Assembly: GCA_963971285.1 (NCBI GenBank)
Contig: OZ020249.1
Coordinates: 6,634,001 to 6,698,000, forward strand
Length of the DNA stretch: 64,000 nucleotides
Direction of reading: 5' to 3'
Source: Astropecten irregularis
Taxonomy: Eukaryota; Echinodermata; Asteroidea; Paxillosida; Astropectinidae
The position numbers and the translations under genes are program-made. Below, one piece after another: positions 10,447 to 53,331 of this stretch. Each line of letters starts with the position of its first letter. Position 1 is the first letter of the stretch. Under the pieces are notes generated by a model. The model was not told where the DNA came from. It did not search any database and worked only from the letters and a program-made list of their open reading frames with translations.

Positions 10447-13400
10447 CTGGTGGATTCACAAAATAAACAAAAAAACAAGATGTGAAAGGAGATTTGTACT
10501 GGAACCAATACACCAATCCGACTTGCGATTCATGTGATTGGCCTTGCGGTGTATCACCCTGCAGTAAAGTGTGCGGCAGAACATAAGTTCTTTTGGGCTG
10601 CGTACGAGCGAGCTACTCGCATTAACACGAGTATACTCCTGAGCGCTCGTATACTACGAGAGTATACTCCTGAGCGCTCGAACGGCTGGAGTACGACACT
10701 CGGGTCAGCGAGAGTATACTCTCTAGACATGGGGAGTATACTCCTGCACCGGAGAGTATTGCGTGCCCATCATACTCGTGTTACTGGGAGTAACCGCTCG
10801 AACGCAGCCTATTTGTCACACAAAAGGCAGGCGGGGACACTGCAGTAATGGCGGATAGTATGTCGTGCTGTCAAATCGGTCTATACATTTTAAATGCTCT
10901 GGGCTCGATTTCACGAAAGGCTAAGATAGATCGCAACATGCATATCAATCTTAATTGCTAAGCAACGCGTGATGTCACAATACTAGCTGCTATGGAAACA
11001 TGAACAACTCATCTAAAAGATGAATCGCAAATCTTTGTGAAATCGACCACTGGATGTATAAGCAAAACATACAATACAGGACGAGTCAAAAGGAAGTTGA
11101 CCGGGGTTGGTAATGTTTTTCAAAAGAAACAAATGACACTCAAAAGTTCAGTAAGGCATATATTTAACAAGCACTCTCACCTGGAATGTCAATGCTTGAC
11201 TGAATCTAAACATCTGAGTGAGTAGCAAAAACTATCAAAGAGTCAATCAAATACATTTAAACTATGCGTACACAGCTACAAATCTTACTTTCTTTCATTT
11301 GTATGTGGATCGGTTTGCGGAAACACCATGTGAGAATCGTTCGTACTCCGCTCAGAGGGGACGAGCGAGAACTTGTTTAAGGTTGCGCTTTCCGGCCTAT
11401 CGTTGAGTCTGGGGTGCGCTAGGCGCACACTGGTTTCATGTGTCAGACTTGGGCCATGCACCGTGGGAACAAAATCTTTAGGCCTACTTCTTCAAATCAC
11501 ACTGTAAGTAATGATCATTTGTTCAATCATCCGAATCAGAATAAATGAGCAGAGTTTCCATCCAAATTGTTCCTTATTCATCAGTGATCCTCCTAATTAT
11601 TGCCATGTCCGTTGAGTGTTCTACAGTTATTAATTAACCTAATCCATTGGTAATTCTTGTCCGAGCAAGCCATCGACGCAAGCCAGAAAAGTCCTTAGAC
11701 CGCACAGTTGTGTTACATTGGTGACAGCGTCGGGATTTGAATTCTGTGTTTTATTGTTGCTCCATGCTAAATACAAGAATTTCAGTTTGGCAGTGGTGAC
11801 AATCGAGCCGTTAGCAATTACGGAATAGGACAAATTACTTTATATCGGTGCCATAATGCCAGTGGTGTTAACTGAGGCCTAGCCACCGGAAAATTGTGCT
11901 CTTGTAGGTCGACAGATTTGTTTAGGTTCGTGCGTTAGACGACCGTACGCGCGTGAGGTTATTACTGTCCGGAAATACCATAGCTGTCCAGACTAGTGAG
12001 ACACCGGCTGCAGAGTACAGAGCCGCCGGGACTAGTGTGACACCAACAGGAGAGTACAGAGCCGCCCAGACTAGTGAGACACCAACCGGAGATTACAGAG
12101 ACGCAGGGACTAGTGGGACACCAACCAAAGAGTACAGAGCCGTCCAGACAAGTGAGACACCGGCCGGAGAGTACAGAGCCGCTCGGACTAGTGAGACATC
12201 GGCCGGAGAGTACAGAGCCGCCTGGACTAGTGGGACACCAACCAGAGATTACAGAGCCGCCTGGACTAGTGAGACACCGGCAAAGTACAGAGGGGTCCGG
12301 ACTAGTGAGACACCGACCGGAGATTACAGAGCCACCCAGACTAGTGAGACACTGACCGGAGAGTACAGAGCCGCCCGGACTAGTGAGACACCTGCCGGAG
12401 ATTACAGAGCCACCCGGACTAGTGAGACACTGACCGGAGAGTACAGAGCCGCCCGGACTAGTGAGACACCGGCTGGAGAGTACAGAGCCGCCCAGACTAG
12501 TGGGACACTGGCCGGAGAGTACAGAGCCGCCCGGACTAGTGATACACTGGCCGGAGAGTACAGAGCTGCCCAGACTAGTGAGACTCTGACCAGAGAGTAC
12601 AGAGCCGCCTGGACTAGTGAGACACCGACCGTAGAGTACAGAGCCGCCCAGACTAGTGAGGCACTGACCGGAAAGTACAGAGCCGCCTGGACTAGTGAGA
12701 CACTGACCAGAGAATACAGAGCCGCCTGGACTAGTGAGACACCGGCAAAGTACAGAGGGGCCCGGACTAGTGAGACACCAACCGGAGAGTACAGAGCCGC
12801 CTGGACTAGTGAGACACTAGCGAGCTTTCGTTTTACGACGGGAGGAATCTAGTACGGTAATTCGAGCCAAAGTTTGATCTGCGCATGCGCGAAAATCTGC
12901 AAGTCCCCGTACCGCTGAAATCTGCGACGGTAGTGAGGGGAAATAGCGTCCGGTCCAGCGGTCGGTACGCTCAGCGCATACAGTACATACTGTACAGTAC
13001 AACACAGCTATAGTGTACAGTGGTTACTGCAGTCTAGTAAGGAGAAGTCGTAATTAGAAGTGACTGTTGAAATTTGTAAGCAAATACTTCATTGAGCGAA
13101 TTGACCATTGTAATTCAAGATGTGTTAAATGTGAAAAGTGGTCAGGTGACTTTGTCAACTTAAGTGGTCTTTGAATCATGCAGTAAAAACCCACACTTTA
13201 AAAGATTGTAAGCAACTTTCCAGGTAACCATGCTTTTAGTAGTACTAACGTTAGTTGCTGAAAATTACCTTGAAAATAAAGGGGGGAAATGGTGGAATGG
13301 GAATCATCTGAAATGTTCTAATCATGGCTGCTGAGAAGGCAGTTTTCATTTCAATATTTAAGTTTTACGTGGAGTATTTGGCAAGCATAGGCAGCGACAA

Positions 13401-16400
13401 GACTAGTGTCTCTCGCACGCGGTGAAGGTTCGCCATGTTGCAATAAATGAACTATTTATATTTTAACGTTGAGGGCGGTCGCAGCACACTTCCGTACCCG
13501 CTGCGTGACGAAACTGCTTCCACACAGGCCCGGGAGCTTGGGTACAGGGACTGTGGCGGTCTGTAATCCTCCCGTATTCTGCGCTCTCCGTCGTAAAACG
13601 AAAGCTCGCTACTGACTGGAGAGTACAGAACCGCCCGGACTAGTGAGACACTGACCGGAGAGTACAGAGCCGCCCAGACTAGTGAGACACCTGCCAGAGA
13701 GTACAGAGCCACCTGGACTAGTGAGACACTGACCGGAGAGTACAAAGCCACCCGGACTAGTGAGACAACGACCGGAGAGTACAGAGCCGCCCGGACTAGT
13801 GACACACTGACTGGAGAGTACAGAGCAGCCCGGACTAGTGAGACAACGACCGGAGAGTACAAAGCCACCCGGACTAGTGAGACACTGACCGGAGAGTACA
13901 GAGCCGCCCGGACTAGTGAGACACCGACCGGAGAGTACAGAGCCGCCCAGACTAGTGAGACACTAACTGGAGAGTACAGAGCTGCCCAGACTAGTGAGAC
14001 ACTGACCGGAGAGTACAGAGCCGCCCGGACTAGTGAGACACCTGCCAGAGAGTACAGAGCCACCTGGACTAGTGAGACACCGACCGGAGAGTACAGAGCC
14101 GCCCAGACTAGTGAGACACTAACTGGAGAGTACAGAGCTGCCCAGACTAGTGAGACACTGACCGGAGAGTACAGAGCCGCCCGGACTAGTGAGACACCTG
14201 CCAGAGAGTACAGAGCCGCCCGGACTAGTGAGACACTGACCGGAGAGTACAGAGCCGCCCGGACTAGTGAGACACCGACCGGAGATAACATAGCCGCCTG
14301 GACTAGTGAGACACTGACCGAAAAGTACAGAGCCGCCCGGACTAGTGAGACACCGGCCGGAGAGTACAGAGCTGCCCGGACTAGTGAGACACTGACTGGA
14401 GAGTACAGAGCCGCCCGGACTAGTGAGACACCTGCCAGAGAGTACAGAGCCACCTGGACTAGTGAGACACCGACCGGAGAGTACAAAGCCACCCGGACTA
14501 GTGAGACACCGGCCGGAGAGTACAGAGCTGCCCGGACTAGTGAGACACTGACTGGAGAGTACAGAGCTGCCCAGACTAGTGAGGCACTGACCGGAAAGTA
14601 CAGAGCCGCCCGGACTAGTGAGACACCGACCGGAGAGTACAGAGCAGCCCGGACTAGTGAGACATCGAAAGGAGAGTACAGAGCCGCCCGGGGTGGTGAG
14701 ACACTGGCTGAAGAGTCAGGCGTAGCTACGGGGGGGCCTGGGGGGGCACGTGCCCCCCACAAATTCGGCGTGCCCCCCCAGGTGCCCCCCCAGAAAAAAT
14801 CGTTGGTAGGCCTATAGAAAAAAAATGAGCGTTATCTGTAGGGTATGATAGCTATAAAGGAAATAAAAACAACTTAACAGCTTTTACTGTTCAATAATGA
14901 TATTTTTTTACTTTCAGCAAATGTTCCTGAGTCCTTAAAACCCTACAGTGAAGAAATCTGTGCAACATTTCAGTGTAAAAATGCAATTTTCTTACGCTCT
15001 TACGGTTGCGAACTTCAAAACAGCCCGTCTGCCATTTTGTCTGGTCCCCAGATTGAATTTCTCCCGCTCAAGAGTGTTGGATTAAAAAGAAATAACGAAG
15101 TAATAATATAAATAAATGAATAAATTTATCGGAACAATTGCTTCCAAAATAAGGCTCAGATTGCACCAAAGAATATCTAGAACCCCTGAGCTTCCAGGGC
15201 CCTTAAGCGGGCCCTGGACCCCGGCCGCAAGGCCTTCGCGCTTATCCATGATTTTCCAGGGAACGTGGAAATAAAATACGGCAACTCAATAGCGACGGAT
15301 GCGTTTCGGGGCGATCAGAGCTAGCTAACTTTGTCTTCCCCCTCTTTTTCAGCTCTTTTGGAGTCTTCCTGTTTCCCATTTATTATTTTTTTTTTCTGTT
15401 TTTTTTTTTTTTTTTTCCCTTGAAGAAAAGGTTGCTCCATGCCCGCTGCATCCGCCCCCCCCCCCCCCCGCATTTCTCATATTTTGCAAATCTCCAGTTT
15501 TGAAAAAAATCCGGGTGCCCCCCCCCCACAAAATTCCAAGGCCCCCCCAGTGCCCCCCTGCTGAAAAAATCCTAGCTACGCCGCTGTGAAGAGTACAGAG
15601 CCCCCCAAACTAGTGAGACACCGACCGGAGAGTACAAAGCCACCCGGACTAGTGAGACACCGACCGGAGAGTACAGAGCAGCCCGGACTAGTGAGACAAC
15701 GACCGGAGAGTACAGAGCCGCCCAGACTAGTGAGACACTGACCGGAGATTACAGAGCTGCCCGGACTAGTGAGACACCGGTTGGAGAGTACAGAGCCGCC
15801 CGAACTAGTGATCGAGACACTGACCAGAGAGTACAGAGCCGCCCAGACTAGTGAGACACCGGCAAAGTACAGAGCCGCCCGGACTAGTGAGACACTGACC
15901 GGAGAGTACAGAGCCGCCCGGACTAGTGAGACACCGACCGGAGATAACATAGCCGCCTGGACTAGTGAGACACTGACCGAAAAGTACAGAGCCGCCCGGA
16001 CTAGTGAGACACCGGCCGGAGAGTACAGAGCTGCCCGGACTAGTGAGACACTGACTGGAGAGTACAGAGCCGCCCGGACTAGTGAGACACCTGCCAGAGA
16101 GTACAGAGCCACCTGGACTAGTGAGACACCGACCGGAGAGTACAAAGCCACCCGGACTAGTGAGACACCGGCCGGAGAGTACAGAGCCGCCCGGACTAGT
16201 GAGACACTGACTGGAGAGTACAGAGCTGCCCAGACTAGTGAGGCACTGACCGGAAAGTACAGAGCCGCCCGGACTAGTGAGACACCGACCGGAGAGTACA
16301 GAGCAGCCCGGACTAGTGAGACATCGAAAGGAGAGTACAGAGCCGCCCGGGGTGGTGAGACACTGGCTGAAGAGTCAGGCGTAGCTACGGGGGGGCCTGG

Positions 16401-19400
16401 GGGGGCACGTGCCCCCCACAAATTCGGCGTGCCCCCCCAGGTGCCCCCCCAGAAAAAATCGTTGGTAGGCCTATAGAAAAAAAATGAGCGTTATCTGTAG
16501 GGTATGATAGCTATAAAGGAAATAAAAACAACTTAACAGCTTTTACTGTTCAATAATGATATTTTTTTACTTTCAGCAAATGTTCCTGAGTCCTTAAAAC
16601 CCTACAGTGAAGAAATCTGTGCAACATTTCAGTGTAAAAATGCAATTTTCTTACGCTCTTACGGTTGCGAACTTCAAAACAGCCCGTCTGCCATTTTGTC
16701 TGGTCCCCAGATTGAATTTCTCCCGCTCAAGAGTGTTGGATTAAAAAGAAATAACGAAGTAATAATATAAATAAATGAATAAATTTATCGGAACAATTGC
16801 TTCCAAAATAAGGCTCAGATTGCACCAAAGAATATCTAGAACCCCTGAGCTTCCAGGGCCCTTAAGCGGGCCCTGGACCCCGGCCACAAGGCCTTCGCGC
16901 TTATCCATGATTTTCCAGGGAACGTGGAAATAAAATACGGCAACTCAATAGCGACGGATGCGTTTCGGGGCGATCAGAGCTAGCTAACTTTGTCTTCCCC
17001 CTCTTTTTCAGCTCTTTTGGAGTCTTCCTGTTTCCCATTTATTATTTTTTTTTTCTGTTTTTTTTTTTTTTTTTTTCCCTTGAAGAAAAGGTTGCTCCAT
17101 GCCCGCTGCATCCGCCCCCCCCCCCCCCCCGCATTTCTCATATTTTGCAAATCTCCAGTTTTGAAAAAAATCCGGGTGCCCCCCCCCCACAAAATTCCAA
17201 GGCCCCCCCAGTGCCCCCCTGCTGAAAAAATCCTAGCTACGCCGCTGTGAAGAGTACAGAGCCCCCCAAACTAGTGAGACACCGACCGGAGAGTACAAAG
17301 CCACCCGGACTAGTGAGACACCGACCGGAGAGTACAGAGCAGCCCGGACTAGTGAGACAACGACCGGAGAGTACAGAGCCGCCCAGACTAGTGAGACACT
17401 GACCGGAGATTACAGAGCTGCCCGGACTAGTGAGACACCGGTTGGAGAGTACAGAGCCGCCCGAACTAGTGATCGAGACACTGACCAGAGAGTACAGAGC
17501 CGCCCAGACTAGTGAGACACCGGCAAAGTACAGAGCCGCCCGGACTAGTGAGACACTGACCGGAGAGTACAGAGCCGCCCGGACTAGTGAGACACCGACC
17601 GGAGATAACATAGCCGCCTGGACTAGTGAGACACTGACCGAAAAGTACAGAGCCGCCCGGACTAGTGAGACACCGGCCGGAGAGTACAGAGCTGCCCGGA
17701 CTAGTGAGACACTGACTGGAGAGTACAGAGCCGCCCGGACTAGTGAGACACCTGCCAGAGAGTACAGAGCCACCTGGACTAGTGAGACACCGACCGGAGA
17801 GTACAAAGCCACCCGGACTAGTGAGACACCGGCCGGAGAGTACAGAGCCGCCCGGACTAGTGAGACACTGACTGGAGAGTACAGAGCTGCCCAGACTAGT
17901 GAGGCACTGACCGGAAAGTACAGAGCCGCCCGGACTAGTGAGACACCGACCGGAGAGTACAGAGCAGCCCGGACTAGTGAGACATCGAAAGGAGAGTACA
18001 GAGCCGCCCGGGGTGGTGAGACACTGGCTGAAGAGTCAGGCGTAGCTACGGGGGGGCCTGGGGGGGCACGTGCCCCCCACAAATTCGGCGTGCCCCCCCA
18101 GGTGCCCCCCCAGAAAAAATCGTTGGTAGGCCTATAGAAAAAAAATGAGCGTTATCTGTAGGGTATGATAGCTATAAAGGAAATAAAAACAACTTAACAG
18201 CTTTTACTGTTCAATAATGATATTTTTTTACTTTCAGCAAATGTTCCTGAGTCCTTAAAACCCTACAGTGAAGAAATCTGTGCAACATTTCAGTGTAAAA
18301 ATGCAATTTTCTTAGGGAGCAGGGCGTTAATGTTGATTCGGCTTTCCCGAGAAGAGTCTTCACCAGGCCGCGGCCCTGCAAACTTTTTCGGGTCCATTGT
18401 GTGCCCTAATCCCCCTACAAAAGAGACCCAGTTAATCTGAACGTTTGCACCATCTCTCAGGATGGCCGGCCTGGAGTTCAGCCAAGCATAGCTCATTATC
18501 GGAGTCCTATTGTGCCTGCCCTATTCATACTTGACTTCAGCCTATTACGGGAATTTCTTTGAGGGTAGGACATTGCCGACGGGTTTATTTCTTGAGCGGT
18601 CGACTACAGTCATCCCCCTGCTGGAACTTTGCAACATTTCCTTGAAGACTTCAGCATCATCAGTATAAAATAATAGTCACAACGGGGTCTTTCTTCAGGG
18701 GCTCGGGATTTCCTTTTCCCAACTCATTTTTACTTTCAGCGGATCGTTGTGCATTTTGGTGGTCGTGATTTGTTTCCACCTTTTTTTGTCTCGGGATCGG
18801 CATTTTATTCAGGGATAATTTTTGTCTTATTCTTTTTTTTTCTGGGGATGAAATATATTTCCGAAGATCGTTGGGGAAATCAACGGAATCCGATTCTGTG
18901 GGTTTTTTTTTTCTTTCAGAGGATCGTGGTTTTCTTCATTGTCATTATTTTTTTCACGGGGATCTTTTGATGGATTATTATATGACGAGTTATTTCTTGC
19001 GTGGATACCATAAAACATTTCAGCGAAGGGGCTGAAAGCGCTAATTTTTATATTCTCGAACTTTATTTGGAGAGGAGAAGAAAGTACTTTCTGAAATCTG
19101 ATCGATATGACTATATTTCTGGAGATCGTTTTGTTGGGGTTCAGGGGATCCTGACTAATCCATAATTTCAGAAGGTCGTGGCATTTATTTCTTTTTCTTC
19201 TATTTCTCTCGGGGATTGGGTGGGATCCAGAAGATTTGGGATCGGGAAGCCGTCTTCAATTCAGGGGATTCTGTTTTGTTTTTCTTGTTTTTCTTTTTTA
19301 GAGGATCGTGATTTTTCTTGCTTGTGGTATTTTCTTCTATTTTTTCACGGGAATTATTTTTGGGGAATTATTATAGGCCAGATAATATCTGATATGGCTA

Positions 19401-22400
19401 GGGCTGCGCGTTCCTATAACAATACAGCTGTCAATCATTCTTGGAAGAGAGCCAAGTTTTGTTTCAAGTTGGTGATGTTTTTTTTCTCACAGAGATCAAG
19501 TTTCAGAGGGTTGGGATTTATTTTTTCACGGCATCGGGATTTGTTATTTTTTCTCGGGGATCGTTTTATCCCATGGCAAGCATTTTTTCAAGGGGATCAG
19601 AATTGATATTTTTGGGGATGGATTATATTTTGGGGATGTTTCGGGGTATATATGAGAAACCTAAAAGCTGTCTATGTTTTTTCTCTTAGGGATCGTGGTT
19701 TTTGGTGATCGTAATTTTTTTGGAGGTCTTTTTCTGTCTAGTTGTCGGGGTTGCTTTAAGACGGTCGGGGAACGGATACTTTCCAGGGGATCGGAATTCA
19801 TGGGTTGTTTTTCTAGGAAGGGTTCGACACTAACTTATTTGGTTTGTTGGTGACCCATTCGGGCCACTAAAATCTTCGTAACATTTTTTGTGGCCCAATC
19901 ATGAAGCCCGAAAAAATAAAGAAAACAGAAAACACGCCTGCAGAGTGTACACGTACCGAACGGATATGTATGCATATCGTTGCGAGAATTAGGTAGGCTG
20001 TGACCGTTCTCGAATCCAAGGTAGTAGGGGCCTACCGTCCATAGACGGAAATCGCATATTCCTGATCAGCTAAATCTTGCTTGAATTTCACTCGGTTATT
20101 TCTCCCAATTCGCTATTGGTAGAAACATTCGTTTCATGTGCTTGATGTAAAAATATCGTGCCGTAATTCCCCGGCCTCCAGTCCCGGATCGGCGCATTGC
20201 GTAGGCGAAATCATCGGGCACCCACGGCCACATGCACGCACACCGCTCAGCAGTCAGCCTGGTATCCGCGCCCGTAAAAGCCACGATCTTAAATGACCCG
20301 TGCACCAGCGAAATAGTTTCAACCACGTGTAGGCCGGAAGCCTACTTTGCGTGCGTGTATAAATGGAGTCAGTCACTAGCGGTTACCGATACCGTGGCGG
20401 CGCGGCCGGCTTCGGTAGGCCTACATAATTTTACGGTAAGAATCCGCTTTTACTCGTCCCAAAAAGCCTGTCACGCTTAGAAATTCCACTCATGATCGAC
20501 TCTGAATATTCTGTAAGGTTGCTCCAGCAATAGAATATTGCCATACTCCCGAACACTCGCCCACATCGAGACCAGAATCTCACATAGCGGTGCCGTTTTT
20601 TTAATTGCCCGATCGGCCGTTGAAACTTTAATAATACTTTTAATAGTCGTCCGACATCTAATTTCTATTATTAAAAGCACCGGGCAACCGTCAGTGTCGA
20701 TCCCCGAGATCGTTTTTATCCCGTGCGCCGAAGATTTTTTTCAAGAATATCGGTATTTATATAGGCCTATATATATATTTTTTTAATTTATTTATTTATT
20801 CAGTGAAAACCAACAGCGGTTAACCGCCACTTACAGACATCAAAAAGCATTTAAAAGAAATAAAATGAGCCATATACATATAAACATTAATACTTTATAA
20901 AAAAAATATTCAGGAAAATTCGGCAAACTGCCATAAAGACCTACATTCAACCTCACAATAAAAGCACACACACCCGGCCCGCAAACGCGGCATTTGTAGC
21001 TGGCCGATGTTTTTTTCAGGGGCTCAGGATTTATTTACATGTATTTTTCAGATGAACAGGATTTATTTTAAGGGGAAGGATCGACTTTCAGGGGATACGG
21101 CAAGCAGACCTTCGTACCGATGGTTTAGACATCCATGTATACAAAGAGTAAAATGCCCGATATACTGCATGGAAATTGTCAGGAACTTGCTACTGTTGCG
21201 CAAAATAATTCCACTCTATCATAGTCGACTGCCAAACTTATTATTCACGGCTCGGCCGAAGTAAAGTTGCACCTCTTGAAGAAGAATAACTGAGCTGTCA
21301 CTCAATTACAGCCAGGAAACTCTTCCACTCAGATTCCATTGTTCCCTTTGTTATACAGTTCGGCCGGATTAGCGGCATGATAAAAGACTGGCAAGACGTG
21401 CCAGTCAAGTCTATCCTAACAATGGAGACTGGTCGAGCTCCATTCATTGGCGAAGTGCCCTTTGTATTTGTTCAGGGGATTAAAAAGGCCGTAGGGCCGC
21501 GACGTAGTCACGGCCCCGTGAAGACTCTTTTCGGGAAAGCCGAATCAACATTAACGCCCTGCTCCCTTACGCCATGATTTTCCAGGGAACGTGGAAATAA
21601 AATACGCCAACTCAATAGCGACGGATGCGTTTCGGGGCGATCAGAGCTAGCTAACTTTGTCTTCCCCCTCTTTTTCAGCTCTTTTGGAGTCTTCCTGTTT
21701 CCCATTTATTATTTTTTTTTTCTGTTTTTTTTTTTTTTTTTTCCCTTGAAGAAAAGGTTGCTCCATGCCCGCTGCATCCGCCCCCCCCCCCCCGCATTTC
21801 TCATATTTTGCAAATCTCCAGTTTTGAAAAAAATCCGGGTGCCCCCCCCACAAAATTCCAAGGCCCCCCCAGTGCCCCCCTGCTGAAAAAATCCTAGCTA
21901 CGCCGCTGTGAAGAGTACAGAGCCCCCCAAACTAGTGAGACACCGACCGGAGAGTACAAAGCCACCCGGACTAGTGAGACACCGACCGGAGAGTACAGAG
22001 CAGCCCGGACTAGTGAGACAACGACCGGAGAGTACAGAGCCGCCCAGACTAGTGAGACACTGACCGGAGATTACAGAGCTGCCCGGACTAGTGAGACACC
22101 GGTTGGAGAGTACAGAGCCGCCCGAACTAGTGATCGAGACACTGACCAGAGAGTACAGAGCCGCCCAGACTAGTGAGACACCGGCAAAGTACAGAGCCGC
22201 CCGGACTAGTGAGACACTGACCGGAGAGTACAGAGCCGCCCGGACTAGTGAGACACCGACCAGAGATAACATAGCCGCCTGGACTAGTGAGACACTGACC
22301 GAAAAGTACAGAGCCGCCCGGACTAGTGAGACACCGGCCGGAGAGTACAGAGCTGCCCGGACTAGTGAGACACTGACTGGAGAGTACAGAGCCGCCCGGA

Positions 22401-25400
22401 CTAGTGAGACACCTGCCAGAGAGTACAGAGCCACCTGGACTAGTGAGACACCGACCGGAGAGTACAAAGCCACCCGGACTAGTGAGACACCGGCCGGAGA
22501 GTACAGAGCCGCCCGGACTAGTGAGACACTGACTGGAGAGTACAGAGCTGCCCAGACTAGTGAGGCACTGACCGGAAAGTACAGAGCCGCCCGGACTAGT
22601 GAGACACCGACCGGAGAGTACAGAGCAGCCCGGACTAGTGAGACATCGAAAGGAGAGTACAGAGCCGCCCGGGGTGGTGAGACACTGGCTGAAGAGTCAG
22701 GCGTAGCTACGGGGGGGCCTGGGGGGGCATGTGCCCCCCACAAATTCGGCGTGCCCCCCCAGGTGCCCCCCCAGAAAAAATCGTTGGTAGGCCTATAGAA
22801 AAAAAATGAGCGTTATCTGTAGGGTATGATAGCTATAAAGGAAATAAAAACAACTTAACAGCTTTTACTGTTCAATAATGATATTTTTTTACTTTCAGCA
22901 AATGTTCCTGAGTCCTTAAAACCCTACAGTGAAGAAATCTGTGCAACATTTCAGTGTAAAAATGCAATTTTCTTACGCTCTTACGGTTGCGAACTTCAAA
23001 ACAGCCCGTCTGCCATTTTGTCTGGTCCCCAGATTGAATTTCTCCCGCTCAAGAGTGTTGGATTAAAAAGAAATTACGAAGTAATAATATAAATAAATGA
23101 ATAAATTTATCGGAACAATTGCTTCCAAAATAAGGCTCAGATTGCACCAAAGAATATCTAGAACCCCTGAGCTTCCAGGGCCCTTATTAAGCGGGCCCTG
23201 GACCCCGGCCGCAAGGCCTTCGCGCTTATCCATGATTTTCCAGGGAACGTGGAAATAAAATACGCCAACTCAATAGCGACGGATGCGTTTCGGGGCGATC
23301 AGAGCTAGCTAACTTTGTCTTCCCCCTCTTTTTCAGCTCTTTTGGAGTCTTCCTGTTTCCCATTTATTATTTTTTTTTTCTGTTTTTTTTTTTTTTTTTT
23401 TCCTTGAAGAAAAGGTTGCTCCATGCCCGCTGCATCCGCCCCCCCCCCCCGCATTTCTCATATTTTGCAAATCTCCAGTTTTGAAAAAAATCCGGGTGCC
23501 CCCCCCCACAAAATTCCAAGGCCCCCCCAGTGCCCCCCTGCTGAAAAAATCCTAGCTACGCCGCTGTGAAGAGTACAGAGCCCCCCAAACTAGTGAGACA
23601 CCGACCGGAGAGTACAAAGCCACCCAGACTAGTGAGACACCGACCGGAGAGTACAGAGCAGTCCAGACTAGTGAGACAACGACCGGAGAGTACAGAGCCG
23701 CCCAGACTAGTGAGACACTGACCGGAGATTACAGAGCTGCCCGGACTAGTGATCGAGACACCGGCCGGAGAGTTTAGAGCCACCCGGACTAGTGAGACAC
23801 GGACCGGAGATTACAGAGCTGCCCGGACTAGTGAGACACCGACTGGAGATTACAGAGCCGCCCGAACTAGTGATCGAGACACCGGCCGGAGAGTTTAGAG
23901 CCACCCGGACTAGTGAGACACGGACTGGAGATTACAGAGCTGCCCGGACTAGTGAGACACCGGTTGGAGAGTACAGAGCCGCCCGAACTAGTGATCGAGA
24001 CACTGACCAGAGAGTACAGAGCCGCCCAGACTAGTGAGACACCGGCAAAGTACAGAGCCGCCCGGACTAGTGAGACACTGACCGGAGATAACATAGCCGC
24101 CTGGACTAGTGAGACACTGACCGGAGATAACATAGCCGCCTGGACTAGTGAGACACTGACCGGAGAGTACAGAGCCGCCCGGACTAGTGAGACACCGGCC
24201 GGAGAGTACAGAGCCGCCCGGACTAGTGAGACACTGACTGGAGAGTACAGAGCTGCCCAGACTAGTGAGGCACTGACCGGAAAGTACAGAGCCGTCTGGA
24301 CTAGTGAGACACTAACTGGAGAGTACAGAGCCGCCCGGACTAGTGAGACACCGACCGGAGAGTACAGAGCCACCCGGACTAGTGAGACACCGACCGGAGA
24401 GTGCAGAGCCACCCGGACTAGTGAGACACCGACTGGAGAGTACAGAGCCGCCCGGACTAGTAAGACACCGGCCGGAGATTACAGAGCCCACAAAATTCCA
24501 AGGCCCTCCCAGTGCCCTCCTGCTGAAAAAATCCTAGCTACGCCGCTTGAAGAGTACAGAGCCCCCCAAACTAGTGAGACACCGACCGGAGAGTACAAAG
24601 CCACCCGGACTAGTGAGACACCGACCGGAGAGTACAGAGCAGCCCGGACTAGTGAGACAACGACCGGAGAGTACAGAGCCGCCCAGACTAGTGAGACACT
24701 GACCGGAGATTACAGAGCTGCCCGGACTAGTGATCGAGACACCGGCCGGAGAGTTTAGAGCCACCCGGACTAGTGAGACACGGACCGGAGATTACAGAGC
24801 TGCCCGGACTAGTGAGACACCGACTGGAGATTACAGAGCCGCCCAAACTAGTGATCGAGACACCGGCCGGAGAGTTTAGAGCCACCCGGACTAGTGAGAC
24901 ACGGACCGGAGATTACAGAGCTGCCCGGACTAGTGAGACACCGGTTGGAGAGTACAGAACCGCCCGAACTAGTGATTGAGACACTGACCAGAGAGTACAG
25001 AGCCGCCCAGACTAGTGAGACACCGGCAAAGTACAGAGCCGCCCGGACTAGTGAGACACTGACCGGAGATAACATAGCCGCCTGGACTAGTGAGACACTG
25101 ACCGGAGATAACATAGCCGCCTGGACTAGTGAGACACTGACCGGAGAGTACAGAGCCGCCTGGACTAGTGAGACACTGACCGGAGATAACATAGCCGCCT
25201 GGACTAGTGAGACACTGACCGGAGATAACATAGCCGCCTGGACTAGTGAGACACTGACCGGAGAGTACAGAGCCGCCCGGACTAGTGAGACACCGACTGG
25301 AGATAACATAGCCGTCTGGACTAGTGAGACACTGACCGAAAAGTACAGAGCCGCCCGGACTAGTGAGACACCGGCCGGAGAGTACAGAGCCGCCCGGACT

Positions 25401-28400
25401 AGTGAGACACCGACCGGAGAGTACAGAGCCGCCCAGACTAGTGAGACACCGACCGGAGAGTACAGAGCTGCCCGGACTAGTGAGACACTGACCGGAGAGT
25501 ACAGAGCCGCCCGGACTAGTGAGACACTGACCAAAGAGTACAGAGCCATCCGGACTAATAAGACACCGACCGGAGATTACAGAACCGCCCAGAGAGTCAG
25601 AATACTACCCGCCAATTTTAGAGCCACCGGCCGGAGATTCCACAGTCACTCAGAGAGCCAGAATATTCCAAACCCGCCCGGTTTGCGAGAATACCAGCCA
25701 GACACCCATAGGTTAGTAATAGCCCAAGCTACTAGGAAGCGAAGACCTCCTGATAAATTTGGTGATTGGTGTTACTAAAGCTCACAATTTTCCTGTTACA
25801 TTTTGTTTCTGTCTGACTGCAGGCCAGGTATGGGTCGAAGCCGGAGCCGTTTTTGATTTTTGGGCGCTTTAGTTTGATATCGTTGACCTGCAATTATGTA
25901 AATGATCGTAATTTGCTCAATTTTAATGTGTTTTTTTAATTTTGTTTATGTAAAGTTGTGGAAACCTGTAATGTGAATTTTCAGTCATTATTGTAATGTG
26001 AGGACACATTATTTTCTAAAGGACGGGGTTATGTGACAAAGGTCACAAACTCTAGTGCTCAGAGTGGATGAGAGTGTAATTGTTTAAGCTTGCGGCACCA
26101 TGGGAACAACATCTATAGGCCTACTTCTTCAAATCACACTGTAAGTAATGATCATTTGTCTAGTTATCCTAATCAGAATAAATGAGCAGAGAGTACCAAG
26201 GCGGTATATTTAGTTTCCACCCATTGTTCCTTATTCATCAGTGATCCTCCTAATTGTTGCCATGTCCGTTGAGTGTTCTACAGTTATTAATTAACCTGTT
26301 CCATTAGTAATTCTTGTCCGAGCAAGCCATCGACGCAAGCCAGAAAAGTCCTTAGACCACTCAGTTGCGTTACAGTACTTTCGCACTTCTGTTTCGTTCG
26401 CACTTCTCATAAACTCTCAACGTTTCGACTAGCCTGATCTAGTCCTCATCAGGAGATTAGGGACATCAGGGACTAGAGCAGAATAGTTGAAACGTTGAGA
26501 CCTTACAAGAAGTGCGAAGGAAACAGTAGTGCGAAAGTACAAATGATTCTTACTTGGTGTTTCCACCAACCGATCCACATACCAATTGTCACCATGCAAA
26601 GCCTCAAATCCTTCTTTCATTTGTTTTGTCAAGTATTCCATGGACGGCTTGCAAAATGAGTACCTTCATTAAAATAGACATAACTCCTCTTGGGAATGAT
26701 CAATTTGTTTCATTCTGGTTTTTTTACAATAAGCAGGGGAGCATGCTTGTTAAATATATGCTTTACTGAACTTTTGAGTGTCATTTATTTGTTTTGAAAA
26801 ACATCACCAATCCCAGTCAAGTTCTTTTTGACCCTGTAAGTTAGGAAAAATTCAAACATGAAAGCACTTGCTTGACAACTATTCATGTTTAGCAGACTTC
26901 AAGAAACCTCAACTTACTTGTAGTGAGTGCCGTCCAGCTCAACTTGGTGATTCTCCTCTTCGTCTGTTACCATGACGAATGTCTTGATGACTTTCTTCTC
27001 TTGATAATACGGCAGAAGGCTGGCTGCTGGCGCTGTGCTGCCCTCAGTGTTCAACGTGGACGCCAGACACAGAACCTTTGCAAGGAAAGAATGACCACAA
27101 AAACGTTACAAGACGATGACCCCATGAGGGTCTAAAGGTAGTATCATACTTTGGTAGCATACCGAAACCAAAATCTTCACAGATTTACCTATAACTTACA
27201 GGGTATAAAGATGGTAATGGTAGAAACATACCGTTCAAATTGTTCTGCCTGAAATGATGTATTTATCCAGAAAAGAGTAAAACCAAATGACCAAAAACAA
27301 TTTTGATCTTTTAAAAAATACCGTGGGAATTTTTCATTGTTTTCTCAAAAAGTGGGCACCGTATGGGACTGAAATTTTCACAGACGAATGATTGATACTG
27401 TACCTTCCTAGATATTTTTGCCCATGAATCTGCATTTCTTTGACAAAAACCAAAGTATGAAATTATATTTAACCCATTCCGCCCGGGAAGCATCTATAGC
27501 AGTTTGTTTCATGATGTGAAAACATTCGTGATTGCTTTGTTATTTCCGCTGAAATGTACATTGTACGGAGGTTATTGTCTGGATCGAGGAGTTCCACAAA
27601 GGTCGAATGTTTTACCTCTTCAATAGTCCTGGGCATATCCGGGGGGATGTAGTTTTTATGACTGAAGAAGGACAGCTCGGCATTGGAGATGGCACTTAGC
27701 AGACTGGCAATGATGGTGCTGGTTTTAATGGCCGTTCCCATGGACGGTGACCGGTCACCGATTACGGCCACAGGGGAGTCAATGGTCAACCTGTAATTAT
27801 AACAGCCCATTAAGTTTTTTATATTAGAGAAAGGGTTCATGATGCTTAACGTATTAAACAAAACAAAAAAATGCCAAAAAACAAACTGCTTTAAAGGTAC
27901 AGTACAGGATTGGTAAAATACCCAAACAGAAATGTTCACAGATTTACATATACATTGTAACTTTCAGGGTATGAAGATGATGCTGGTAGAAACACACCGT
28001 TAAATATTTCCGCCTGAAATGTTGTATTTATCCAGAACTTAGTAAGACAAGGGACCGAAAACAGTTTTGATCTCGGGGTAAGATCAAAACCATTCTTTAT
28101 GTTTTATAAGAAAAATTTAGTCGGGTTTTCGATAGTTTGAGTGCTGTTGTGTGATCATTACCAATCATGTATTATACAAGAAAAACTAAACAAGAAATAT
28201 ATGTGAAGTATTTGTGTTGAAATATTACACCGTAGAGTAATCAGAAATTACATACAGTATACTTCTAGAATCACAAAGAGAGGCCAATACTAAACTCAAG
28301 TCAGAAGCAGTCAATATGTGTTTGTGTATAAAACCAGCCAATTTGATAGTTGCTATGGGTATAGTCTGTCAGTTGCTATGTGTATAGTACTTTCAAGGCG

Positions 28401-31400
28401 GCAGCGGAATAGTCTTCTCTGGTTTGACAGTGATAAAATTGCATGTAAAGTGGAATGCCGATATAACCAACACGCCAGGATGCACAGATATTTCTGTTCA
28501 TTATAGTGAATTAAAGAACCATATATTCAGTATGTATTGTACACAAAAATTAGGAGCCAAGGATGATGTTCGGCGAAGCAATATGCTCGGTATAGGTGTG
28601 TTTGTTATAGTGGCCTTCCACTGTATTGTGACTAGCTTTTGTCCAATCACAAGGCACTATCTATCTACGAGTGGGAGTAGGGGCCTTTACAAAACGGAGG
28701 CTCAGGCTCAGGCTTGGGCTCCAGCTCTGACATCCATATGCTGAAAATATAGGTTGTGGTTTTTTTTCTTGTAGCTGAAGCTCTGTTTTCCTTTTCAAAC
28801 TAGAGAATCTACTTCCAAACCGCAGCCAAAAGCCTCTATTTTGATACCCGTTATTTGAGAATGGATTCATGAAATGGAGCCGGAGCCTGAGACAGAGCCT
28901 GAGCCTCTGTTTCGTAAACGCCCTATGTCTGTCATGAGCATTTTGTCGTCGTACCTTGTTTTTTCCAGTTGTTTTTGTGCCATTGAGATGAGACGTTCAT
29001 ACAACTCGGTCGTCTCTTCCTTCTTAGCAGAATCATCTATAATAATAAATAAAATGGTAAGTAAAGTTTGTGCACGACCCAACGGGAAAGTCTCCCTAAT
29101 GACCCATTTCCAGTAATTTGAAATTATTACATTATCATAACAACTGTGACTGACATTTTACTCTGGAGTGAGCTATATGTCTTTACTATTATCTCTCTTG
29201 CTACCAATGGAATATACATAACCATTAAAGGTAACTTCATACTTTGGTTTTTGTCAAAGAAATGGCAAAAATATCAAGAAAGATACAGTAAAAGTCATCT
29301 ATGAAATTGTCTGTCCCATACAGTGCCCACTTTTTTTTTTTTAGAAAACAGTGAAAAACGCTCATGGTATTTCTTAAACTTATCACAGGAATTTTTTGTC
29401 TAAGCCTGAGATCAAAACTGTTTTTGGTCATTGGTTTGATTATTTTCTGGATAAATACAGCACTTATAACGGTATGTTTCTACCATCACTATCTTTACAC
29501 CCTGTAAGTTATAGGTAAATCTGTGAGGATTTCTGTTTTGGTATGCTTCCAAAAGTATGATAGTACCTTTAAAGGTAATTAATTAATGTTCACAGATTTA
29601 CATATAACTTTCAGGGTATGAAGACGGTGCTGGTAAAAACATACTGTTAAAATATTTCCGCCTGAAATGAATTACCAAAACAAAGATAAAAAAAAAAGGT
29701 TTAGATCTTGGGGGAAGATAAGTACCATTTTTTATGTTTTATAAGAAAAACTAAATCGTTTTTTCAATATTTTCTAGTGGCTCAAATGTCCGATTTAGCT
29801 TGATCAGACAAAGTGTGAGTGCTGCTCTGTGACATTTACCAATCATGTTTTATACCTTTAAGCATACGTTATATGTGTCTTTATATACTTACTGTCACGC
29901 ATGTTCTTGATGATAAGAAGACGTTCCATTATCTTGCCGTAGGGGAGATTAATGGCCTCTCCATTCCTTAATCTCTCAGCTATGACTCGATCAACCTCAG
30001 GGCAGTTTAGATCCTCATAATACCTGACAAGAAATAAACAACAACAGCAACATAGTCAAACACAGTGTACATCATAGAGCTATATTAAAATTGCTAGAGC
30101 GCTAGCTTCGTGTAAAAAGTGATGCCTGCTGGGCGCATCCATGTTTGTGCACAAACCTATGGAAAGCCTACAATTTTGTAAGTTTTTTGTACGTTCATTT
30201 GCATACCTGCGTTGTGTTCTATACAGGTGCGTTATTGAAGCCAAATACGCCCAAAATCCGACACACCTTTGGTAAATGCGCGTTTCATTTATCACCCTGC
30301 GCACACACGCTCTGCACTTCAGTCACGCAATGATTGCAAGTGTCATCAAGACGCGCTACCGGTACCGTTCGCACATACTTGTGCATTGCATATAGAGTAC
30401 ACTCTTCGAATGGCATTCCAGTCAAAGTGTTCTTGTTCCACAGACACGCACTCAAATTCAAAATGACTGCGCCCAGAACGGCTTCAAATTGTCTACTCGC
30501 GGAGAACGCGGAGCTAGCGCTCTAGTAATTTTAATATAGCTCTATGGTGTACATACACTACATTGGGTTTGAGGACAGACAGATCAAAGAGAATAGACCG
30601 ATCCATTCAGCGCTGCCCCAATTGTTTCTGACCAATCACGGCCGTGGCTTATGTCTGACACGCATTCATAAAAATGTATGTGTGCATATTGAGCACATGA
30701 TTGGAACGTGCAGTATGACATTGGAGAGGAAACCGTGTTCACTGACTATGTGTGAAGTGGAAGGGGCTTTCTGGATCGGTCTATAACAATGCAACTGTTC
30801 TTGTCTTCCGGACTCCTTTTGTTCAAAATTGTTCACAATCATCCTCGGGCAAACAAATGTGTCCTTAAACCTATGGGAGTTTTATATTTAAGTTTCATTT
30901 ATTTATTTATTTATTATTTCATTTCATTTATTATATCTCAGGTAAACAGCAGTACAGACAACATGATATTACATTCAAGACATTAACAACAGGAACAAAC
31001 TGAAAACACCCCTGAGGATTGCCTAAAAGCGAACCAAATCACTGTCAAGTTCCGGGACAAAAGAAAACACAATGCCTTGTCCTCGGACAGTATGTGAAGC
31101 AGGAATGTGTGCATATAGATATCATGTAAAGAGGCTACTGCTAAGAACATCTCGGGTGAATTTATTCATGAACTGTAAATTGACATACAGTGTATTATTT
31201 TGGTTTTTGTGCATTAATTTATGCCCGATTCAAACTTTCTGCGTATTTGCAAAGCAATGAAAATTCTATGTGGATCGGTTTGCGGTAACACCATGTAACA
31301 TTTGTTTTGTACCTTTTGGCACTTTTTGTAAATCGCACTTCTCGTAAGGTCTCAACGTTTCGACTAGTCTGCTCTAGTTATCATCAGGAGACCCTGACTA

Positions 31401-34400
31401 GAGCGGGCTCGTCGAAATGAAGACACCTAATAACGAGAGGTGCGATGAAATAAGAAGTGCGAAAAGTATGAAACAAATACTACACAGTATTTAATACCGC
31501 AAACCAATATCCACATCATACCGTACCACACAAAGCCTCAAAATTGTCTGGTGCCAAAACAGGAAAGCGTCACATCACGATTCTCAGGAAGTATCGGAAA
31601 CTGGACTTAAAGAGCACCATCCACACATAAGGATATCATGAATGCCCCATTCCGGCTTTGCTCTTAAGCCCCGCCCACGTGTGTATTTTTTATATCACAT
31701 GTGACCGAGTTTGCTTTCGTGGTCACCTGATTAAAAGGTGTCCTCCAATTGGTCAATGAGCAGAGTTTGATTGACAGGCCGGAAGGGTCAAATTTCGACA
31801 CTTTAACATTCCAGCACTCACCATAGCAACGTGTCCAAGGTTTTCTCCACTTTAGCCACACGTTCCTTAGCCTGGTTGGAGAGCTTCAATTTGAACGACT
31901 TGAGATGGGAGTAGGGGATGCTGTGTGATGCAATGAGATCGTCGGCAGTTTCATTGGTCAAGTTGGCACAGCGAGCGACCAGGGTGCTGTCAGGGGCTGG
32001 TTCCCCATAGCAATAGGGCAGAAACCATGGCAATGTGAAATCCTGAGGAATAATGATAAGAATTTCAATATTAATATCAACTTTATCTAATTATAATACC
32101 AAAGTTGGTAGAGCACCTGTACGGTATTCAGGAGGTCGGCGGTTCGAATCCCGCTGCACTCAATTTTTCTTTGTTGACTTTTCAATGACTTTAAATTCAG
32201 TCAGTTTCCCTTGTGGTTATTTGATGGTTATATTAATTGAAAAGCCGTATCCTCTTTGAAAGCTCCCCATGTGCCGTTCCCAGGTTGCATCATTGCTGCG
32301 TGTATCATTGAAACGATCCTTGGGGTATGGCGGTGTGTGCGTGGTTTCATGGCTTCTGACTGACAAACAAACAAAGGTAATTGACTATTGGAGTCACCAC
32401 CCATGCATATAGCCAGACGCCGGTTCGACATCCGCTCCAGTCAAAATTTTTCCAAATTATCTAAGTTCCACTGTTCCACCCAACTCATTTCAAACATCAT
32501 CCCGATAATCTTCCCACAGAAGATAACACCTACATTTAAGTATAAAACAAACTCCACACACAAAGCTAAAAAAAAAAACACCTACCTTTTTGGGATTAAA
32601 ATGGACCAAATCTGCTAATTTCTTCCATGGTTCCTTGGGGAGATGAAGAGCATAGAACTGGAGTTCTTCATCTGGGATGGTTCTTGCCCATGCCTGGACA
32701 TGTCTGCTAATGGCACCACTCAAAGAACCAACCTGAAATCATCACAAGGAAACAGTTGGTACAGTTATTCAGACGCAGTTTTCTAGTGAATGACACTTTC
32801 TCATTCATTATCTATTCAATGGGAGACTTTTGAGAACCGGTCTTCAAGTCAGCACGCGCACGCAATTGTGAGCATGCGCGCCTTGTTTTGCGCCTGTGCT
32901 GTTGTGCGTGCGTGTGCGCTGTTGACTTGAAGACCGGTTCTAAAAAGTCTCCCATTACCATTTCCCACTGTGAAACAATCGCTAATTACAATTAAATCAG
33001 GCCTTGAATTTGGTTCTGTAAAGGGCAAGGCCGCTTTTTCATTGCAAGGAGTGCTGTGGCCTAGTGGTCTGGCGTGTTGAACTCAAAGTCTTGAGGTCAA
33101 TCTACGGATTGTGGGTTCGAATCCAGCCATGGGTTAATGGTGCTTGCGTCCTTGGGCAAGACGCTCTGTCACATATTGCTCCTCTTCACCCTGGGGTAAA
33201 TGGGTACCTGCGAGGGTAGAGATATGGCTTTGTGGTTTGATTAGCCTCTGTGCGCCCTATGGTTGCCAGTATGGGGCTGTATGCTCCCCAGGGAGTTGAG
33301 ATGGTTTCAGGATTTTATGGCCCGATGACCAGGGATAATAATAATGTACAGCGCTTTGATCTTCTTGGAAAGGCGCTTTATAAATGCCCGTTATTATATT
33401 ATTAAGGGGCACTTCCATTGAAAAATCATAATATCTATGGAAACATTTGAAAGGGCACCAAGGCCAAGAACCAGGGCAACAAACATGACTAAGGCCATGG
33501 CCTCCATTGAATTAAAGGCTTGTTAAATGCGCAAGGAGCCATACTTTAAAGGTAAAGTACAGGATTGGTAACATACCCAAACCGAAATGTTCACAGATAT
33601 ACGTATAACTTTCAGGATATGAAGGTAATGCTGGAAGAAACAAACTGTTAAGATATTTTCGGCTGAAATGCTGTATTTATCCAGAAATTAGTAAAGCAAA
33701 GACCAGAAACAGTTATGATCTCAGGGTGAGATCAAAACTCCTGTGAATAGATTTTAAAAATACCGTGAGCATTTTAAAATATTTTCTACTGTTTCCGATG
33801 ATGATATGAGCTGAAAATTTCACAGGTTTGTTTTTATTTCATGACAAATCAAATTATGAACAGCCTGTAGCTGTTCTGTCAACTTTACCAATCCTGTATT
33901 ATGCCTATAAGGATAAAAATGAGGACATTTACAAAGGGAAAAGTTCCACTGGAAGATTGGTACCAGTATACAGCGAGCTTTCAAGCCATGGGCGCCATTA
34001 TGTTAAAATTAAACTGTTTGCCACTTCAAAATTCACATATGTGATACAGCCATGTCTTGGCTATCACCATGTAGAATTTAAGCATATTGGGGCTGAAATT
34101 GGCGAAAATATGACCACTTGAAAGAGTACTCCTTAAAAACAAATTCTCAAGGATAACACACATAGTGGTCAATACACACATAATGTGTATGAAAGAAAGA
34201 TGAAAATCGGGTTTTGAGGTTGGGTATTTAAGTCTTAGTTTTTTCACTCAATTTTAATCCAATTTTGCTCAAATTCGACATGGTGATGGCCAAGACATAG
34301 TTGTATCACATATCTGAATCTTAAAGTGATAAACAGTTTAATTGTCATATAATAGATCTCGACACAAGTGTTGCGTTTTTTTTTTGGACACCCTGTACAA

Positions 34401-52834: not shown

Positions 52835-53308
52835 CATAGAGCTATATTAAAATTACTAGAGCGCTAGCTCCGTGTAAAAAGTGATGCCTGCTGGGCGCAT
52901 CCATGTTTGTGCACAAACCTATGGAAAGCCCACAATTTTGTACGTTTTGTGTACGTTCATTTGCATACCTGCGTTGTGTTCTATACAGGTGCGTTATCGA
53001 AGCCAAATACGCCCAAAATCCGACGCACCTTCGGTAAAGGCGCGTTTCATTTATCACCCTGCGCGCACACGCTCTGCACTTCAGTCACGCAATGATTGCA
53101 AGCATCATAAAGGCGCCCTACGGGTACCGTTCGCACAGACTTGCGCGTTGCATATAGAGTACACTTTTCGAAAGGCATTCCAGTCAAAGTGTTCTTGTTC
53201 CACAGACACGCACTCAAATTCAAAATGACTGCACCCAGAACGGCTTCAAATCGTCTACGCGCGGAGAACGCGGAGCTAGCGCTCTAGTAATTTTAATATA
53301 GCTCTATG
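52835..53308 (+). mobile_element. hAT-type MITE (CATAGAG family), copy 3
   Basis: 474 bp, perfect 8-bp target duplication GTTTTTCC at 52827-52834 and 53309-53316. It is inserted in the remnant of a TTAA family A terminus (52808-52834) and ends 23 nt from the MTF-1 stop codon. Confidence 0.9.
53292..53297 (-). promoter_or_regulatory. candidate poly(A) signal ATTAAA of MTF-1
   Basis: ATTAAA on the minus strand begins 35 nt after the MTF-1 stop and lies in the MITE terminus, as at 10113-10118 for the vWA gene. Inference only. Confidence 0.4.
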
Positions 53309-53331
53309 GTTTTTCCCCATTTATGTCTCAA

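Follow-up and report, generated by a model that had tools for sequence, protein, structure and literature searches.

Introduction

The path from retrotransposon to satellite DNA has hitherto been known mainly from plants. The FabTR satellites of Lathyrus are reported to derive from short tandem arrays in the 3' untranslated region (UTR) of Ogre elements, which occasionally expanded (Vondrak et al., PMC7004042), soybean Gmr9/GmOgre elements hold minisatellites of up to 149 repeats per locus between the coding region and the long terminal repeat (LTR) (Mogil et al., PMC3305785), and in Retand elements the corresponding 3' position is taken by family-specific arrays, described there as of unknown function (PMC11963269). 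In animals, the Drosophila gypsy insulator is a 340-bp stretch with 12 Su(Hw) sites in the gypsy 5' UTR (PMC2374998), and tandem repeats in the Tetris foldback transposon of Drosophila virilis are reported to have given a satellite (PMC4079207; named in PMC7004042). Here we describe a Ty3/gypsy-type LTR retrotransposon with a 39-bp minisatellite in its leader, found in a 64,000-nucleotide stretch of the echinoderm Astropecten irregularis (GenBank assembly GCA_963971285.1, contig OZ020249.1, here C12, 6634001-6698000). This whole stretch is called the window. The genome scanned comprised 475.7 Mb, and its 43 exon matches to the Wnt family, every one above the Pfam cut-off, mark it as that of an animal.

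Like the plant Ogre/Tat elements, as these sources present them, the family of the window element has a family-specific tandem array as a normal part, spread with its copies and expanded at some loci. Unlike theirs, which are placed between pol and the 3' LTR, the array lies in the 5' leader before gag, and the host is an animal; compared with Ogre/Tat, clear block-wise higher-order repeats are seen here at two loci, the window and a cluster on contig C19. The element shares with Drosophila gypsy a repeated DNA block in the 5' untranslated leader, but the gypsy sites are described as short, separated by variable spacers and bound by a host zinc-finger protein, whereas here 39-bp units stand head to tail in 8-208 rows with no known binder. 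Tetris, too, is a case of tandem repeats in an animal transposon giving a satellite, although it is described as a foldback DNA transposon and the window element is an LTR element. Searches of the open-access literature, covering listings and abstract openings, gave no earlier description of an animal LTR element with an expandable minisatellite in its leader. An array-bearing, expandable retrotransposon is already known in plants; the animal host and the 5'-leader position are new here. One animal genome shows both halves of the path, transport of short arrays and later growth in place to 5-8 kb, and the two are distinguishable by unit order.

The window element is one insertion of a dispersed family

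The window contains a single LTR-retrotransposon insertion spanning 11347-26374 (Table 1). A direct repeat at 11458-11717 and 26095-26374 extends as LTRs to 11347-11717 and 26032-26374, with the end ...GTTACA; the window 5' LTR is without its own TG start, which is present in other copies. The two LTRs differ at 25 of 298 sites, a Kimura two-parameter (K2P) divergence of 0.089, and the primer site TTGGTGACAGCGTCGGGAT directly follows the 5' LTR. An earlier interpretation made from the letters alone (the sequence-only reading) had proposed an LTR element with a diverged LTR pair and a primer site, and this was confirmed, with a polypurine tract in addition. The element thus has the structural marks of Ty3/gypsy: a TG...CA LTR pair, a tRNA primer site, a polypurine tract and a short target duplication. 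The TGGTGACAGCGTCGGGAT primer type, which we take to be tRNA-Leu, is found in the window and at four loci (C1, C20, C30 and C19a), with one further difference in C20. The C9 primer site is TGGTGGCAGCGGTGGGAT and that of C12b is close to it. Genome-wide, 25 exact matches to the tRNA-type 3' end pattern were found, 24 fitting the C9 type and one (C17) nearer the window type.

The element sits in a miniature inverted-repeat transposable element (MITE). Joining the left flank, up to 11347, to the sequence from 26380 onwards gives an alignment with an uninterrupted MITE copy at 44285-44441, and GTAC stands on both sides of the element. Six other family insertions with flanks read show 4-bp RTAY duplications, namely the paired copies C18 and C12b and the single LTRs L026, L027, L028 and L029, so the target duplication is best read as 4 bp. 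The MITE target proposed by the sequence-only reading stands; its duplication length of 5-6 bp is corrected. L029 sits in an AT repeat, making its match cheap and of little information, and the LTR of L027 starts with TATGAC, not TGTGAC.

Searching the genome with LTR plus leader gave 31 matches, accompanied by primer sites and 4-bp duplications. Around the family matches 27 stretches of 10 kb were fetched and their features mapped. Sixteen family copies were found including the window, with a leader match in 14 stretches; L014 has an array and a truncated LTR but no leader match. The 39-bp array is present in 15 of the 16, at array sizes from 8 to 208 unit rows. The copies fall into eight loci (window, C12b, C19, C20, C1, C30, C18 and C9), and a 310-bp array query gave at least 133 matches, 133 of 133 inside these loci; 20 of 20 first-look candidates were scored, very common words were skipped and the counts are lower bounds. 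This appears to be a low-copy Ty3/gypsy family of an animal. Elsewhere on C1, in L030 (G000:C1:75500-85499), three consecutive copies of the element's 3' untranslated part lie close to a single LTR, a further local amplification.

The C19 cluster (G000:C19:4250000-4360000, L015-L025) holds nine copies of the 5' part of the element, 9-15 kb apart on one strand, eight of them with arrays of 17 to 208 unit rows. The left flanks of copies a, d, e and g are alike, as are those of c, f and h, which lie beside a truncated LTR; i is different, these eight being the copies whose flanks were read. The cluster is counted as one locus, multiplied by segmental duplication, and forms a natural series for array growth after such duplication.

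The array is a leader segment of coding relatives

Coding relatives with the same LTR place the array. It is followed by gag in C18 (L014), C9 (L010) and C12b (L011), which, with the eight array-bearing loci, answers the question raised alongside the first reading of whether such copies exist. C18 also keeps stretches of protease (PR), reverse transcriptase (RT), RNase H (RH) and integrase (INT), broken by stops and frame changes. A Pfam scan of ten separate open pieces from relatives, three of which had no match, gave Retrotrans_gag (9e-7), Integrase_H2C2 (4e-23) and rve (2e-14) in L010. In L014 it gave gag-asp_proteas (4e-6, just under the cut-off), Asp_protease_2 (4e-5, just over it), RVT_1 (4e-32) and RT_RNaseH_2 (4e-36). 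With pieces pooled from L010 (gag, integrase) and L014 (PR, RT, RH), the relatives have the PR-RT-RH-INT order of Ty3/gypsy. An open reading frame (ORF) follows pol in L014 (2117-2837, minus strand) and encodes a putative C2H2 zinc-finger protein, with a weak zf-C2H2 match (2e-4, below the Pfam cut-off).

In these coding relatives the array is located between the primer site and gag. Eight copies were examined for the join; all six with a gag-start motif, C12b being counted without its Met, have one or more stops in the gag frame between array and gag. Because an in-frame stop parts the two, the array belongs to the leader and not to gag. The array is thus a normal untranslated-leader segment of a coding Ty3/gypsy family and not captured cargo, contrary to the proposal that a satellite had replaced the coding interior.

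Short arrays travelled with the element and long arrays grew in place

The extent of the window array was determined by wrap-around alignment to the 39-bp unit. It amounts to 6,316 bp, or about 160 unit-equivalents with 144 full units, fewer than the hundreds first supposed. A repeat scan placed the array at 11964-12817 (start taken from the unit alignment), 13611-14706, 15590-16363, 17251-18024, 21912-22685 and 23570-25590. Some 42% of the element is array, and nested transposons account for about 48% more.

Transport and growth were separated by a unit-order test, in which units were written as strings along the array and aligned, with shuffled order as control. This was used instead of a unit nearest-neighbour comparison, which is biased by array size. 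For whole-array comparisons, arrays of more than 70 rows were cut to the first and last 35, and middles were cut to 40 rows. Five short arrays of 178-432 bp (C1, 13 rows; C9, 15; C12b, 8; C18, 11; C30, 15; partial rows counted) lie on different contigs. Unit order was common to nine of their ten pairs, the score being reached by at most 1 of 300 shuffles, and three pairs tested without their edges kept the signal (0-2 of 200 shuffles). The common order across contigs indicates that the short arrays travelled by retrotransposition.

The middles of arrays with at least 17 rows at different loci gave another result. No common order was found in any of five pairs (window/C20, window/C19d, C20/C19d, C20/C19b and window/C19b; z -0.1 to -1.5), 113-190 of 200 shuffles reaching the score. 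The segmental-duplicate control C19d/C19g kept its middle order (z 7.2, 0 of 200 shuffles). Over whole arrays, order was absent for window/C20 (276/300 shuffles), C20/C9 (199/300) and C20/C30 (145/300), weak for C20/C1 (13/300) and present for C20/C19d (1/300).

Long arrays also have periods of their own. Identical units recur at lag 18 in the window (40% of units), then at 36 and 54; the lag is 62 in C19c (44%) and, more weakly, 44-45 in C19f (15% and 11%). C19c, C19f and C19h share the same flank and LTR break, yet have 208, 140 and 63 unit rows, and arrays of the cluster reach 8 kb. Since these higher-order repeats are locus-specific and internal order is not common, the long arrays of the window and C19 grew in place.

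Block growth in the window carried transposons along. A hAT-like insert of about 870 bp is present in four copies, with the 8-bp duplication TGAAGAGT. The three copies compared whole are 99.5-99.9% identical and have one common junction, which indicates a single insertion multiplied within an array block of about 1.66 kb. Among block self-matches the closest pairs are 98.4 and 99.4% identical and the others 93.5-96.3%. As blocks and hAT-like copies are closer than the LTRs, the blocks multiplied after the insertion, provided that rates are similar. A 3.25-kb insert (18315-21566) interrupts the third hAT-like copy; its perfect 36-bp terminal inverted repeats (GGGAGCAGGGCG...) and TTA duplication give it a PIF/Harbinger-like character. 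A Pfam scan of the nested 18-21 kb stretch (three forward frames and two reverse ORFs of 142 and 87 aa) gave no match.

Taken together, these observations support that short arrays moved with the element and that the longest expanded at their landing site, block by block. The spread of a minisatellite by retrotransposition, as first suggested, is thereby upheld for the short arrays (nine of ten pairs collinear), the long ones having grown later. We therefore read the window locus as an old, internally deleted Ty3/gypsy copy whose leader minisatellite moves as a short array and then grows in place, with a probability of roughly 0.87. In the mechanism we propose, every new copy brings its short leader array (178-432 bp) along through transcription, reverse transcription and integration, a step supported by the collinear short arrays. 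Once inserted, arrays at some loci grow through duplication of multi-unit blocks, taking nested transposons along; block growth with transposons is seen in the window, and block periods also in two C19-cluster arrays. Such duplications would most likely stem from unequal exchange or replication-based recombination. The window copy lost gag-pol and the 3' ORF through deletions found in none of the other copies, leaving the array with its nested transposons as most of the element.

Several observations weigh against this reading. The window LTRs are not sisters in the LTR tree, nor are those of C18, although those of C9 and C12b are, with modest support; the tree is nearly star-like, with 16 of 24 inner branches open. 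With so little resolution in the tree, it is the target duplication and the MITE match that carry the case for one insertion. Divergence between some window blocks reaches 6.5%, not far below that of the LTRs, and array lengths depend on the assembly. C1 and C12b are not collinear beyond chance (37/300 shuffles), C12b having only 8 rows, and two of the arrays counted as longer, C20 (19 rows) and C19d (17 rows), are in fact intermediate in size. C19h, C19b and C20 have no clear higher-order period, and L025 has a leader without an array in the stretch read. Finally, the array search skips common words and scored 20 candidates, so copies outside the family may exist. Separately, a clade of long-array elements was considered and dropped because the LTR tree lacks the resolution for one.

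Sister families have leader arrays of other unit lengths

Relatives of the RT piece at 63-71% amino-acid identity were, among the matches listed, C70 and C28 and, matching part of the query, C10 and C25. In the 1.5 kb read of the C70 leader, an LTR-like end with a primer site is followed by about five copies of a 34-bp unit and then by a gag start similar by eye to that of the 39-bp family; a second copy of this leader type (91%) lies at G000:C20:7968040-7968366. C28 has about 12 copies of a 36-bp unit, and a gag-start-like ORF begins about 80 bp beyond the last of them; the C28 primer site falls outside the stretch read. A 36-bp query found six loci: C28, C9:3914277-3915584, C10, C1:10731128, C22:4745907 and C21. 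At C28, C10, C1 and C21 the arrays lie about 0.9-1 kb upstream of a same-strand gag match, these matches beginning about 310-330 residues into gag. The arrays at C9:3914277-3915584 (about 1.3 kb) and C22:4745907-4746367 have no gag match listed nearby and are candidate leftovers of decayed elements.

Judged against dinucleotide shuffles, the 39- and 36-bp units are related (score reached by 0 of 1,000), the 39- and 34-bp units more weakly (7/1,000), and the 36- and 34-bp units not significantly (240/1,000). In the copies read, two sister families have an array before gag although its units differ in length and sequence, which suggests that this clade tolerates or favours repeats in the leader. 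The 5'-leader position kept with different units makes it testable whether the arrays serve the element or are passive passengers.

These families bear on whether the satellite came first, one element having taken a pre-existing genomic minisatellite into its leader and spread it afterwards. Leader arrays that differ in sequence between sister families may have been gained more than once, which favours capture, as do the two 36-bp arrays with no listed gag match. Against it, the array query turned up no 39-bp array beyond the family (133 of 133 listed matches inside), and the relatedness of the 39- and 36-bp units fits divergence within elements. We consider capture unlikely, if the best of the alternatives.

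Relatives of the zinc-finger ORF outside the 39-bp family occur at C10, C21 and C70 (41-43%) and C15 (30%). Those at C70, C10 and C21 lie downstream of gag or pol in copies that also have leader-type arrays; the C15 leader is outside the sequence read. One speculative and rather improbable idea is that the protein of this 3' ORF binds the leader array, which could act as an insulator, promoter or packaging signal, and that this cis/trans pair co-diverges between families. Co-divergence would explain a changed unit sequence at a conserved position. As to RNA structure, no excess was detected for the 39-bp units (z -0.05) or the C9 leader (z -0.84, 20 shuffles). Strong folding was obtained for the 36-bp array (z -5.99), but as its unit appears partly palindromic we claim no common RNA structure for the arrays.

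The deleted form appears private to the window

LARD/TRIM elements have LTRs, a primer site and a polypurine tract but no gag-pol. The window copy resembles them: it has both LTRs with these marks and the duplication, and neither an RT match at E<=1e-60 (111 of 1,276 candidates scored) nor a gag match at E<=1e-5 (75 of 539 scored) is listed in it. The absence of a coding interior noted in the sequence-only reading holds for RT and gag; the window does keep a 43-codon remnant of the 3' ORF at 25722-25850, with one internal stop. This remnant is preceded by a splice-acceptor-like tract.

Coding relatives that could mobilise an array-filled, gag-pol-less form in trans do exist, and the first interpretation had accordingly likened the locus to LARD/TRIM. 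Unlike LARD/TRIM, however, the deleted form is seen here as one copy only. A query across junction 1 (25600-25850) gave 15 listed matches, and none of the 14 others spans it, each stopping at or before the junction from either side. The query across junction 2 (25740-25990) gave 12, with none of the 11 others spanning. No second copy of the deleted form was thus present among the junction-query matches, and other family copies keep different coding remnants. As both junctions are absent from the other listed matches, there is no sign of a propagating LARD/TRIM element; several copies with the same non-coding interior did not appear, and mobilisation in trans of the deleted form is decidedly unlikely. 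The window copy has the look of a deletion derivative confined to this locus and does not appear to belong to a deleted subfamily that moves; its coding interior was lost by deletion, not replaced.

The array is not a coding repeat

With a 39-bp unit, the array could in principle encode a 13-residue repeat domain, fused to gag or in an upstream ORF. One forward frame is stop-free over the first two window segments, the net indel is divisible by three in all seven window units that have one, and translation of the 36-bp sister unit in the matching frame is similar, albeit with stops. The openness that had been noticed at the outset is real but uninformative: four of six unit frames are open, but at least as many are open in 1,807 of 2,000 composition shuffles. 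The opposite strand is equally open over the first two segments, stops interrupt each of the three forward frames of the 34-bp sister array, and the stop before gag recurs in six of six copies. The frame was kept in 0 of 168 net-indel units in seven C19 arrays (many copies of one event); elsewhere, frame-keeping indels number 1/1 in C19b, 1/3 each in C1, C9, C18 and C30, and 1/1 in C12b, C20 having no indels. The array-gag stops, the openness of both strands and the 34-bp array led us to reject this very improbable interpretation, the seven frame-keeping indels of the window notwithstanding.

It is hardly credible that the flanking repeats are unrelated segmental duplicates, or that the arms at 11085-11347 and 26536-26832 are the ends of a giant DNA transposon, for although the arms are mutual inverted copies, they form one MITE interrupted by the element (the match to 44285-44441) and the LTRs belong to a dispersed family with 31 LTR-plus-leader matches, primer sites and 4-bp duplications.

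Features of the window

Table 1. Parts of the retrotransposon, its array and its target in the window
Feature	Position	Strand	Remarks
Target MITE, left part	11085..11347	.	Inverted copy of 26536-26832; GTAC duplication at 11343-11346
5' LTR	11347..11717	+	Compared with other copies, about 20 bp missing at the start and 22 bp inside
Non-repeated leader	11718..11963	+	Matched in 14 of 27 fetched 10-kb stretches
Primer binding site TGGTGACAGCGTCGGGAT	11719..11736	+	tRNA type, read from the sequence
39-bp array, segment 1	11964..12817	+	Repeat scan and unit alignment
MITE-like insert	12818..13610	.	Terminal inverted repeats GCGAGCTTTCGTTTTACGACGG, TA duplication; read from the sequence
39-bp array, segment 2	13611..14716	+	Repeat scan and unit alignment
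hAT-like insert, copy 1 of 4	14717..15586	.	hAT-like by 8-bp duplication TGAAGAGT; copied through array block duplication
39-bp array, segment 3	15587..16375	+	Repeat scan and unit alignment
hAT-like insert, copy 2	16376..17247	.	Self-comparison
39-bp array, segment 4	17248..18036	+	Repeat scan and unit alignment
hAT-like insert, copy 3	18037..21908	.	Split by the 3.25-kb insert 18315-21566
39-bp array, segment 5	21909..22697	+	Repeat scan and unit alignment
hAT-like insert, copy 4	22698..23566	.	Self-comparison
39-bp array, segment 6	23567..25590	+	Internal 982-bp duplication at 95%
Degenerate 3' edge units of array, then pre-gag leader	25591..25733	+	Feature mapping, unit alignment
Deletion junction 1 (gag and pol lost)	25734..25735	.	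Seen in the window alone
Remnant of post-pol sequence and start of 3' zinc-finger ORF	25735..25851	+	Query matches
Deletion junction 2 (remaining 3' ORF lost)	25851..25852	.	Seen in the window alone
3' untranslated part	25852..26031	+	Polypurine tract AAAGGACGGGG at 26018-26028, before the 3' LTR
3' LTR	26032..26374	+	TGTGAC...GTTACA; about 60 bp missing inside
Target MITE, right part	26375..26832	.	Starts with the GTAC duplication at 26375-26378

Other features of the window lie apart from the element. A second, GC-rich Ty3/gypsy-like pol (37415-43001, minus strand) has RNase H, integrase and, just under the cut-off, RVT_1 matches, and is separate from the element described above. A tRNA-Thr(GGT) call at 35320-35392 (minus strand) is near stretches repeated at 32103-32401 and 35292-35668; it adjoins a LINE-type RT ORF and is possibly a tRNA-derived repeat. 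Four copies of a MITE-like repeat of about 480 bp with inverted ends, 87-95% alike, are found at 30073-30548, 52835-53310, 54543-55020 and 60038-60523.

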